Origin: Rhodococcus sp. KBS0724
GTDB lineage: Bacteria > Actinomycetota > Actinomycetes > Mycobacteriales > Mycobacteriaceae
DNA: 64,000 nt
Assembly (NCBI RefSeq): GCF_005938745.2
Contig: NZ_VCBX02000001.1
Coordinates: 5,284,501-5,348,500, forward strand
Direction: 5' to 3'
The notes beneath the pieces are model-generated. The model searched no databases. It saw nothing but the letters and a program-made list of their open reading frames with translations, and was not told the origin of the DNA. The position numbers and the translations under genes are program-made. The stretch's first letter is position 1; every line of letters starts with the position of its first letter. Shown one piece after another: positions 12,428 to 15,833 of the stretch.

Positions 12428-13306
12428 TCAGAGAACCTTCTGCGGTACCGAAACCGCAGTGTCGGCGGCATTGCGGGCCAAGGCAACGGTGGCGGCGATC
12501 ATGGCAACAACGGCGAGAACAAGAATCGCAGCCACCGTTCGATCTGCGTCGAGGTACTCACCGAGAACCACAAAACCGAGCAGCGACGCGATCACCGGCT
12601 CCATGATCGTTGTCGCCGGCAACGACGCTTGTAGATCCCCCGCTTGAAAAGCCGACTGCTGCACCGAGGTTGCAACCGCGGCAACCACGACAAGTGCATA
12701 GAACTCGAAGGACGTCAGAACGGCTGACGGTCCGAGCGTTACCAGGTGCACAACACCTTTGGTGAGCACTGCGGCAACTCCGAACAGTGAGCCGCCCGCT
12801 ATTCCGAGCAGCAACGCCCTCGCCGATCCCGTACGCCGATTCGCTCCGAAAAGACAGAGCGCGATGAACGGCAGCCCGATCAGTGTGATCATGATCCAAT
12901 GCTGCGTCTCCGCGCGCGGTTGCCCCGGCCTGGGATCACCGACGACCACCAGCACTGCCACCGACGTGGTGAGCGCCGCTGCCCACAACCACTCCCGCGC
13001 ATTGATCGTGCGCCCACTGAATTGTGCGCCGAGTGGGAGTGCAAACAACAGGGACAGCACCAGCAGCGGCTGCACCAGCAGCAGTGAGCCCAAGCCGAGT
13101 GCCGCAGCCTGAAGCGCGTAACCCGCGATCCCGACGATCGTGCCCAGCCACCAGATCGGGCTGTGCACGAGCGTCGTGATCGGTCCGAGCGCGCCGATGG
13201 AATCATCCGGGACCACCGCTGCCGTGCGCTGGCGAACTACCGTGCCGATCGCGATGCAGACCGCTGCACCGATGGCGAACAACACTGCGAGGAAGGTGTG
13301 GGACAC
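12428..13306 (-). CDS. DMT/EamA-family transporter
   Basis: A 292-residue inner membrane protein with about ten hydrophobic segments in the two-repeat pattern of the drug/metabolite transporter superfamily. ATTIMEPVIASLLGFVVLGE near residue 240 is the usual second-repeat signature, and the C-terminus is a final helix plus short tail. Members export amino acids, nucleobases or drugs. It starts 20 bases after the TatA stop in the same direction, so it probably belongs to the oxidase-RidA-TatA operon, where it could move a substrate or product. Specificity is not visible. Confidence 0.78.
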   Translation of the reverse strand: MSHTFLAVLFAIGAAVCIAIGTVVRQRTAAVVPDDSIGALGPITTLVHSPIWWLGTIVGIAGYALQAAALGLGSLLLVQPLLVLSLLFALPLGAQFSGRTINAREWLWAAALTTSVAVLVVVGDPRPGQPRAETQHWIMITLIGLPFIALCLFGANRRTGSARALLLGIAGGSLFGVAAVLTKGVVHLVTLGPSAVLTSFEFYALVVVAAVATSVQQSAFQAGDLQASLPATTIMEPVIASLLGFVVLGEYLDADRTVAAILVLAVVAMIAATVALARNAADTAVSVPQKVL

Positions 13307-13326
13307 CTCGCTACTTTCGCACAGGA

Positions 13327-13521
13327 TCAGTACTTCTTGCCCGGCGCCAACTCGGAATCGAGCGCAAGATCGGTATCTGCCTGCAGTTCACCGACCTCGG
13401 ACTTGAGAATCCGCATCGACCGCCCCAGCCCGCGGGCCGCGTCCGGCAGCTTCTTGGAACCGAACAACACCAGCAGCACTACAGCGACGATGGCCCAGTG
13501 GGTGGGGCTGAGCGCGCCCAT
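13327..13521 (-). CDS. tatA: Twin-arginine translocase subunit TatA/TatE
   Basis: A 64-residue TatA-type protein. One N-terminal membrane helix ([19 protein letters not shown]) contains the FGxKKLPD hinge, followed by an amphipathic helix ([16 protein letters not shown]) and a short acidic tail. Its start overlaps the stop of the RidA gene (TGATG). Rhodococci normally encode the housekeeping TatA near TatC elsewhere. This copy has no TatC beside it but lies in an operon whose first gene carries a Tat signal, suggesting a dedicated or auxiliary pore subunit. Confidence 0.9.
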
Positions 13522-14192
13522 CAGGCGGGTTCCTTGCCTTCGGGGTACACCGCGTCGACCTCTACCTCGACCAGCCAGCCGGCAACCGGCAGTCCGGCAA
13601 CTTCGAGCGCGAAGCGAGTGGGGCGAGCACTGTTTCGTTCGATCGGTGCGATGGGTGCCGCAGTTCCCATCGGAACCAACTCCGTCTCACCGGAATCGAG
13701 GTTTGTATTGGCAAAGAACTGACGGTACGCGCGATTCCATCCGGTGTAATCGGCCTTGTCCGAGCCGGGAGCGTTGTCGAGGAAGACGCGCATCGTGACA
13801 ACATCTTCGAGTGTCAAGCCCTGGGCTTCGAGATTGTCACGAATCTTCTTGAGCACATTGATGCCCTGCGCTTCGGTAACCGTCACACCGGCCGGCAGTA
13901 CACCACCGGAGAACTGCGAGTCGATGTACGACTCCGGCGATCCTTCGGGTGCGGCTTTGTTTCCAGCCGACGGTCCGATGCCACTGGTTTTGTAGACCGC
14001 TGTATCGCCGCCGATGGCCACACCCTGCGCGATCATCGGATTAGCCTGTCCGGCTTCGAGAACCGACTTCGAAATGAAGGAGCTGGTGGCGGTTTCCGCC
14101 TCGGCGGTATCAGACGAGCACGCTGTCGCGGTGCCGAGTAGCACGGATGCGGCAAACGCTGCGGCAACAACTTTGGTGGTGCGAGTTTTCAT
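13521..14192 (-). CDS. Exported RidA-like (YjgF/YER057c/UK114) protein
   Basis: A 223-residue protein with an N-terminal signal ([19 protein letters not shown], then TATAC, a possible lipobox or signal peptidase I site) and a RidA domain from about residue 80. The C-terminal signature [17 protein letters not shown] contains the arginine that binds the substrate carboxylate in RidA. RidA enzymes hydrolyse reactive enamines or imines to keto compounds plus ammonia and are normally cytosolic, so an exported version is unusual. ATG 14192 is preferred over 14225 because the signal peptide starts there and GAGGAG lies upstream. The next gene upstream is a Tat-exported flavin oxidase that would make imines. 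Confidence 0.85.
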
Positions 14193-14228
14193 GGTGTCTC
14201 CTCGAAAGTGGTGGTAGGTAGTCAAGTG

Positions 14229-15833
14229 CTAGGCGCCCTGCGCGACCCGCTGGTGCAGGTGGGTGACAACGTCCTGCGCCGACGTGAAAGCGCCGTGCTG
14301 CCAAGCAATCGCGTTGGAGAGGTGATCACCGGCGAAGTAGATGCGGTCGACGGGCTCGAGCAGTTTTGTGTATTCGGGAGTTGCCATGCCGCCGTGCGAA
14401 TCTCCCGCACCGGCCCACGATGCCCAGGCCGACTCCGAGTACTTGGTACGACGCCAGCTGCCCGAGAAGGATGAGGAGATATCGCGGGTGTACTTCTCGC
14501 CGTGGATCTCCGAGCCTTCGGCGATGGCCTTCGCGAGGCGCTGCTTGTGTGTGAGGGATTCGAAAGCCTGCTGACGCTTACCCGAGCTGTAGTACGCGAC
14601 AACAATTCCGCGGTCGGAGTTGTAGTGATCGTAGGGAAACATGATCTGTGAGATATCGCGGTCGGTGTTGGATGCGCCGCCGTAGATGCGGTCTTCGGTC
14701 TCCCACCAACGACGCGAGTACTCGATACCGAGCTTGCCGGACGACGACGGCTTAGCTGCGTCCAGCGCGAGAAGGACATCGGAGGGCAGGTTGTTGTTCA
14801 GACGTTTGATCAGGTGCGGCGGAATGGTGCAGATGGCGTAGTCGGCGGTGATCGACTTTGCCTTGCCGTCCACCACGTAGTCGACGGTGACGCCCTCAGG
14901 GACGTTCTTCATGCCGCTGACCTCGGCACCGAACTCGATGTTCTCCATGCCGATCTTGTCCTGGAACTTGTAGTAGATCCGGTCCATACCGCCGACCGGG
15001 GTCATCATCGTCATGGCCTGGTCGTAGCCGAACTCGAAGGAGAACGCGCGTCCGATACCGCCCTGGATGACATCACTCATCCCGAAGGGTTCGATCTCGG
15101 TGCCGAAGTTCAAGCCGGCACCCGGCTCTACGGAATGACCTCGACGCGAGGATCCCACGTAGCGTCCATCGCTGCCCAGATCGCCGAAGTCCTTGAGGAA
15201 CGACGACAGCGCTTCCTTGTCTTCCTTGGTGAGCACCTCGTCGAGAGCGCCCTGGTTGGTGGCCTTCTGCAGTAACTCGGACATGTAGCCGTAGGTGTCT
15301 GCTTTTGCTGCCCGGTACGTGATCGACTGATTGGCAAGGGGCTTGCTGCCGGTGTAGTTGACGAGCGTGTTGGCATTCTGGTTGCCGAACATCTGCAGTT
15401 CGACGCCCAACTCGCGGCAGTAGTCGATGGTGTTGTGATTCTGCGGGATTCGCGTTGCACCGAGATTGTAGAAGTGCCCCTCCGAGAACGTGCAGGTCTG
15501 AGTCTCGCCGTTGAGATCCGTCTCCTCCGTCCCGTTACGGATCGACCACACTCGTCCACCCGGGCGGGTGCGGGCTTCGAGGACGGTAACCTTGTATCCG
15601 GCCTTCTGCAGCTCGTACGCCGAACACAGACCCGCCGGGCCGCCCCCCAGGATCACAACGGAATGACTGCCCTTGACCTGTCCGATCAAGTCACCCGCTG
15701 CCGGCGCCTGAAAACGTCGCGGTGACGCCGAAGCTGCCGGTGCCAAACCGATGGAAGACATAGCTCCCAGTGCCAGGCCCGCGCCGCCGGTGATTCCCAG
15801 ACTGCGCATGAAAGATCTACGTGTGTACGACAT
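14229..15833 (-). CDS. Tat-exported flavin amine / L-amino-acid oxidase
   Basis: A 534-residue FAD oxidase of the monoamine oxidase/LAAO family. The N-terminus is a Tat signal ([17 protein letters not shown], then a hydrophobic stretch and an Ala-rich cleavage region). The dinucleotide fold is [19 protein letters not shown], followed by the [12 protein letters not shown] motif. The C-terminal FAD contact is [18 protein letters not shown]. The middle contains long lineage-specific stretches as in the secreted rhodococcal L-amino-acid oxidase known from R. opacus. It would oxidise an amine or amino acid to an imine plus H2O2 outside the membrane. It is first in an operon with exported RidA, TatA and a DMT transporter. 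Substrate is inferred. Confidence 0.88.

Follow-up and report, generated by a model that had tools for sequence, protein, structure and literature searches.

An operon of Rhodococcus sp. KBS0724 that encodes an L-amino acid oxidase (LAAO), a signal-bearing RidA and a second copy of the twin-arginine translocation (Tat) subunit TatA is probably an extracytoplasmic amino-acid oxidation unit. It lies in the window analysed here, a stretch of 64,000 nucleotides of contig NZ_VCBX02000001.1 (C1:5284501-5348500 of the 7.25 Mb genome), and its three genes stand on the minus strand exactly where a first-pass annotation of the DNA had placed them (Table 1). LAAO and RidA are separated by 36 bases, and the ATG of TatA overlaps the TGA of RidA by one base (TGATG). 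In the genus, 28 genomes were compared: a RidA match is present in 24 (one weak and non-orthologous), orthologues of both LAAO (at least 76% identity) and RidA (at least 71%) in 23, with the LAAO of one genome split over contigs, and TatA directly after RidA in 21, that is, in 21 of the 23 with LAAO and RidA. A scan of genome contigs gave 177 stretches encoding a relative, and the best 80 of these are the loci referred to below. LAAO is directly upstream of RidA at all 77 testable loci, and at the other three RidA lies within 185 bases of a contig end. TatA follows at 24 of the 80 loci, all of them Rhodococcus or Prescottella except Nocardia puris. Thus the three-gene order is kept well outside this strain, a point on which the first-pass annotation had let its reading depend. 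In an order-wide search 5 of 397 genomes passed at an E value of 1e-15, from which no frequency is derived because only seven candidates were scored per genome; a phylum-wide search, likewise with seven candidates scored per genome, returned 1 of 396 genomes (the window's own) at 1e-8.

The flavin amine oxidase domain and full-length similarity place the first gene product with the L-amino acid oxidases of the R. opacus type. Its mature part is 82.6% identical (404/489) to that of the R. opacus ATCC 51881 LAAO (locus L138), and the latter agrees with PDB 2jae at all positions shown along 489 residues. Because a lipobox RidA and a TatA are found at this R. opacus locus too, the crystallised R. 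opacus LAAO belongs to the present operon type, and the operon provides a genomic context for that structurally solved enzyme. Papers are cited here by PMC number and, except for PMC5619798 where its wording is counted, from parts of their text; the neighbouring genes of the R. opacus LAAO are not mentioned in the parts of PMC4699246, PMC7468451 and PMC5053998 that were available. The LAAO of the window carries the twin-arginine motif YTRRSFMRS, and an [ST]RRx-hydrophobic motif stands at the LAAO N-terminus in 76 of 77 loci, the LAAO of locus L191 having no RR motif in the stretch examined. The motif and the identity to a characterised L-amino acid oxidase bear out what had been proposed from the sequence, an oxidase with a Tat-type signal as the first gene. 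Two further occurrences of LAAO were seen: in Pseudonocardia alaniniphila (L154:4113-9794) the gene is present twice and flanks an IclR-permease pair on both sides, and a phage record (MT835646.1:7134-8567) contains an LAAO-like match of 34.8% identity, in an unannotated faecal phage of 23 kb that may be host DNA.

The ATG of RidA at 14192 is preceded by AGGAGA, which ends four bases ahead of it. Cys25 is invariant in 23/23 congeneric orthologues and remains so after two more distant loci are added, whereas the first ~40 residues otherwise vary and only a few Ala are invariant besides. The N-terminus of RidA is signal-like at 80/80 loci, with a lipobox at all 44 Nocardiaceae and Pseudonocardia loci and a hydrophobic signal-like N-terminus without a shared lipobox at the remaining 36; hence the type of the RidA signal changes, and the presence of a signal is kept. 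Pattern PS51257 is matched by the window RidA and by 44/44 Nocardiaceae and Pseudonocardia loci, and the stricter G+LPP lipobox core by the window RidA and 24 of those 44, both patterns being used in what we take to be their usual forms. Among the 36 loci without the shared lipobox, seven have some Cys near the RidA N-terminus, and in L174 and L182 a Cys absent from their relatives completes the lipobox pattern. Hydropathy of the RidA N-terminus is at least 1.68 at 77/80 loci; because one RidA paralogue without signal layout reached 1.78, layout and Cys were also used to call signals. The starts of L176, L185 and L196, all among the 36 and L196 lying at the edge of a contig, were read by eye, and the starts in four Nocardioides rows are unsure because the N-terminus that follows the chosen GTG has no positive charge. 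Only the locus RidA among the six RidA genes of the genome has a signal-peptide layout, the other five showing none when judged by eye.

A mis-set start of RidA, which the first-pass annotation had named as a weak point of its reading, is ruled out by the invariant Cys25 and the signal-like N-termini across loci, and RidA is apparently exported and membrane-anchored. That the signal is non-functional and RidA stays inside the cell is very improbable: export is read from the sequence alone, with part of the signal evidence judged by eye, but the signal-like N-terminus recurs at every locus and in the majority of the plasmid-borne relatives inspected (below), and little apart from Cys25 is conserved before residue 44.

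The protein has the marks of a Rid domain, matching PF01042 at 44.2 bits against a cut-off of 27.3. Arg193, Glu209, Glu211 and Ile54 are invariant in 33/33 sequences, and the first three fall in columns common to solved Rid proteins. The Arg column is aligned with 9bka and, via the Rid of Microvirga, with TdcF, and RidA retains the Arg and Glu that are conserved in imine-hydrolysing Rid proteins, with Glu209 or Glu211 as the candidate for the Glu of the literature. In the profile match to 9bka, Ile54 pairs with residue 15, also Ile, which via the Microvirga Rid is in the Tyr column of TdcF. Replacement of the RidA Tyr by Ile is a criterion for Rid3 (PMC4433059), and by this residue the locus RidA can be classed as Rid3-like. 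A structure model of RidA (mean predicted local distance difference test score 70.8, predicted template modelling score 0.67, the signal region below 50 on the former) had the Rid3 structures 9bka and 9bkc as its top Foldseek matches, and the solved structures nearest by both sequence and fold are those of PSPTO3006 and PFL1385. Moreover, the alignment of the PFL_1385 construct (9bkc) with the Rid of Microvirga takes in a signal-like N-terminus, a hint that export may be frequent among Rid3 proteins.

About 30 extra residues of RidA lie inside the segment aligned with positions 42-120 of the Rid profile, and could be docking loops if RidA were mainly a structural subunit or anchor, with the lipidated Rid trimer binding LAAO at the membrane and hydrolysis secondary. 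The invariant Cys25 would suit such a role, as would the periplasm of Chlamydomonas, where a non-catalytic M-beta is reported to partner a catalytic M-alpha in a complex (PMC5053998). We nevertheless consider it improbable that anchoring is the main task, given that RidA bears a signal without the shared lipobox Cys at 36 of the 80 loci, that Arg193, Glu209 and Glu211 do not vary, and that the PDB listing of 2jae names LAAO alone.

TatA of the locus matches NF001854 at 92.3 bits (cut-off 72) and keeps an invariant FG hinge, F20-G21. Residue 39 is Leu in the window and in 24/24 named locus copies, in contrast to Phe in 10/10 housekeeping copies, and it is aligned with the Phe of the solved TatA 2lzs, which we take to be the E. 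coli protein. The locus copies are also short, 55-79 aa at 24 loci compared with 85-98 aa for the 10 housekeeping copies. Three genes of the genome match the TatA/B/E family, namely the locus TatA, the neighbour of TatC and, third, a weak match taken for TatB, and the single TatC match (C1:3416408-3417085) lies beside the other TatA and not in the operon. A lone TatA is no translocase. Hence the first-pass description of the operon as self-contained with its own export machinery does not hold, with the sole TatC elsewhere and Leu39 in all locus copies.

The alternative that this TatA is a passenger duplicate without a special link to LAAO, the functional part being LAAO-RidA alone, is suggested by two observations: TatA was not found at 56 of the 80 loci, and Phe39, which is required and appears absolutely conserved (PMC4148689), is replaced throughout the locus copies. 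Several findings speak against it. The median ratio of non-synonymous to synonymous differences (pN/pS) is 0.143 for TatA (13 chosen loci, 78 pairs) versus 0.135 for RidA (12 loci, 66 pairs), which indicates that the locus TatA is under purifying selection, and the one-base stop-start overlap of RidA and TatA is present in 22 of 24 TatA-bearing loci, L163 having a one-base gap. The Metabacillus dongyingensis plasmid pBY2G20 (L208:2156-5419) also has TatA and TatC behind the oxidase pair, LAAO, Rid, TatA and TatC following in a row with signals on both enzymes; its TatA keeps Phe39. Finally, although C. jejuni TatA2, encoded in the nap operon, is without Phe39, several enzyme activities fall when it is deleted, and P. 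stutzeri has a tatE in its nos cluster (PMC4148689). The passenger explanation is thus unlikely. The locus TatA is expected to be a helper of the housekeeping TatA and not a substitute for it, because C. jejuni TatA2, which likewise lacks Phe39, probably needs TatA1 (PMC4148689).

As to a single origin of the locus TatA, two trees were compared. In a tree of TatA, 23 of 24 locus copies stand apart from the housekeeping copies and L163 groups with the latter (support 89/98; one row, L135, is bad), and on a quick LAAO-RidA tree, in which some 'Rhodococcus sp.' rows were labelled Cyanobacteriota and taken as a name homonym, the presence of TatA needs four changes. RidA and TatA of R. jostii NBRC 16295 (L135:30-851, and L116) are joined in one frame via an extra C in a run of C. 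The N-terminus of TatA faces outward and would suit such a fusion; the draft is fragmented, the fusion is probably a sequencing error, and it was set aside as evidence.

We propose that LAAO would fold with flavin adenine dinucleotide in the cytoplasm and be exported by the housekeeping TatABC, and that this export would be aided by a short, dedicated TatA translated from the mRNA that also encodes LAAO and RidA. The Rid protein would be exported unfolded by Sec, lipidated at Cys25 and anchored at the outer side of the cytoplasmic membrane; there it would form the usual Rid trimer. LAAO would then turn incoming L-amino acids into imino acids and H2O2, RidA would convert these imino acids by hydrolysis into 2-oxo acids plus ammonium before they could attack the oxidase or the amines and thiols of the envelope, and a divergent permease and IclR regulator would couple expression to amino-acid supply. 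Directly visible in the DNA are the signals, the order of the genes, the stop-start overlap, the conserved residues and the purifying selection on TatA; export, lipidation, trimer formation, hydrolysis of imines, the part played by TatA and the regulation are inferred from these. In vitro, Rid3 proteins hydrolyse imines made by LAAO (PMC5619798), and RidA and Rid3 genes cluster with flavin amine oxidases (PMC4433059).

The pairing of oxidase and signal-bearing Rid extends beyond Actinobacteria. LAAO and RidA served as queries against plasmid records, and 17 regions from among the matches listed were read; absences in these regions are weak because the gene tables of the records are incomplete. 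The order LAAO-cytochrome c-RidA was found in Ketogulonicigenium, Comamonas, Sulfitobacter, Microvirga and Paracoccus, each RidA having a signal-like N-terminus (that of Comamonas only if the annotated start is shifted upstream), and the Paracoccus LAAO, from its annotated start, is without the RR motif. A Tat-signal LAAO adjoins a signal-bearing Rid in Ketogulonicigenium, Comamonas (with the shifted start), Sulfitobacter, Microvirga, Metabacillus and the actinobacterium Nonomuraea gerenzanensis, and in Proteus mirabilis (NZ_OL790811.1, filed as a plasmid; L214:2434-4396) a signal-bearing Rid is directly downstream of an L-amino acid deaminase that matches PDB 5fjm. A wider claim, which we hold about as readily as we doubt it, is that Rid3-type proteins as a group are a largely exported Rid branch, dedicated partners of exported flavin amino-acid oxidases or deaminases in several phyla, that they provide damage control by imine hydrolysis outside the cytoplasm, and that the Nocardiaceae pair acquired an accessory TatA of its own, without Phe39 and dedicated to export of the oxidase.

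Several observations weigh against an extracytoplasmic oxidation unit or depart from the pairing. LAAO and RidA occur without TatA, which was not found at the 56 loci mentioned above. In the plasmid regions, LAAO and cytochrome c of Dinoroseobacter, Mesorhizobium, Deinococcus, Roseinatronobacter and Rhizobium have no annotated RidA within ~4 kb, the signal-bearing RidA of Sphingomonas is 3 kb away beyond a TonB receptor, that of Bosea has no annotated LAAO nearby, cytochrome c and RidA of Komagataeibacter stand next to an integrase with no annotated LAAO and an ambiguous RidA start, and the Azospirillum RidA has no signal. The R. opacus LAAO with its native signal is listed as cytoplasmic in S. 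lividans in a review table (PMC7468451), which could mean that the heterologous host exports it poorly or that the TatA of its own operon is needed. Moreover, the gain from a RidA outside the cell is not obvious, because imino acids hydrolyse spontaneously in water (PMC4433059). Rid export signals across many loci therefore pose the question of why the enzyme is outside if imino acids hydrolyse in water anyway. RidA biology has been built around protection of cytosolic pyridoxal 5'-phosphate enzymes.

The permease and the IclR regulator that had been noted beside the operon form a divergent pair conserved in related loci: they adjoin the unit in Nocardiaceae, Pseudonocardia and Microlunatus loci wherever the contig allows, and the pair was not found at the remaining loci, for example those of Kribbella, Arthrobacter and Nocardioides. 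Two inverted half-sites in the shared promoter region (GAGTGAGAA ... CTCTCAG), partly conserved among Rhodococcus, are a candidate IclR operator. This neighbourhood bears on whether LAAO is instead a secreted H2O2 weapon, with RidA shielding the envelope of the producer from imines and nitrogen nutrition not the purpose. Bacterial amino acid oxidases with antimicrobial roles have been published (PMC4699246), but a conserved divergent amino-acid permease with an IclR regulator fits nutrition better, and we regard the weapon explanation as doubtful.

Table 1. Features of the operon and of the adjoining divergent pair, in positions of the window.
Feature	Positions	Strand	Description	Basis
LAAO	14229-15833	-	534 aa; Tat signal YTRRSFMRS; mature part from ~residue 46 (2jae chain start)	PF01593, 1.9e-43
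RidA	13521-14192	-	223 aa; predicted Rid-domain lipoprotein, Rid3-like; signal residues 1-24, lipobox Cys25	PF01042
Second TatA	13327-13521	-	64 aa; Leu39	PF02416 and NF001854 above cut-off
Shared divergent promoter region	15834-16046		Inverted half-sites GAGTGAGAA (15941-15949) and CTCTCAG (15974-15980)	14 aligned intergenic regions, by eye
APC-type amino acid permease	16047-17552	+	Divergent from the operon	PF00324; gene order in related loci
IclR-family regulator	17552-18304	+	Co-oriented with the permease	PF09339 and PF01614; gene order in related loci

The span first assigned to the operon began at 12428; its three genes stand as described, and the DMT-family transporter (12428-13306) inside it is not a member. 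As a possible fourth gene this transporter was left out of the unit because only 2 of the 24 regions fetched have it next to the unit, four of the 24 being short pieces of a contig. Beside the operon on the plus strand (9422-12421) are glycosyltransferase-like, acyl-CoA dehydrogenase-like, LmbE-like and S-adenosylmethionine methyltransferase genes, named from their translations, the methyltransferase alone having been compared with Pfam. On the other side, 18308-19831 encodes a 507-aa protein without a Pfam match, relatives of which (86-97% identity) accompany the operon in 9 of the 24 Rhodococcus regions fetched.

The first-pass annotation knew of no described extracellular RidA partner, and this has to be corrected, since Chlamydomonas reinhardtii has LAO1 with LAO2/RIDA in the periplasm (PMC10805672 and PMC5053998, citing Vallon 1993). 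That system shares with the operon an exported LAAO and a periplasmic RidA partner, and differs in being eukaryotic and in being described as a complex. Among bacteria, an exported RidA is named in none of the open-access papers listed in searches on RidA, as judged from the listings and from passages of a few of them, and OngD, a RidA of a chitin pathway, is described as cytoplasmic (PMC9537276). The closest enzyme is the R. opacus LAAO (PDB 2jae, 2jb1-3), of the same family and from a locus of the same three genes. The lao-cccA-ridA operon of Gluconacetobacter diazotrophicus likewise combines a Tat-signal LAAO and a RidA in one operon (PMC5053998), but it includes a cytochrome c gene, a signal is reported for LAAO only, and tatA is absent from the available text of that paper. 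PFL_1385 and PSPTO_3006 resemble the locus RidA as nearest solved structures, in the Ile of the Tyr column and, for PFL_1385, in the signal-like start of the construct; unlike it, they were studied as purified His-tagged proteins, and the text of PMC5619798 contains no word beginning signal, periplasm, export, localiz or cytoplasm. In Proteus, too, a flavoenzyme that acts on L-amino acids, the L-amino acid deaminase (PDB 5fjm), is followed by a signal-bearing Rid, although its family is not that of LAAO.

A dedicated TatA or TatE in a substrate operon is already known, the tatA2 of C. jejuni (nap) and the tatE of P. stutzeri (nos) being short extra TatA genes inside operons of Tat substrates (PMC4148689). 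C. jejuni TatA2 shares with the locus TatA the lack of Phe39; these operon-resident proteins differ from it in having Glu at position 39 and respiratory enzymes as substrates, where the locus TatA has Leu and an oxidase. The present operon is thereby a compact genetic system in which to ask whether an extra TatA without Phe39 can be dedicated to one substrate. Set beside these known systems, what looks new is the combination of LAAO, RidA and TatA, the lipoprotein Rid and its recurrence, and a TatA with Leu39.

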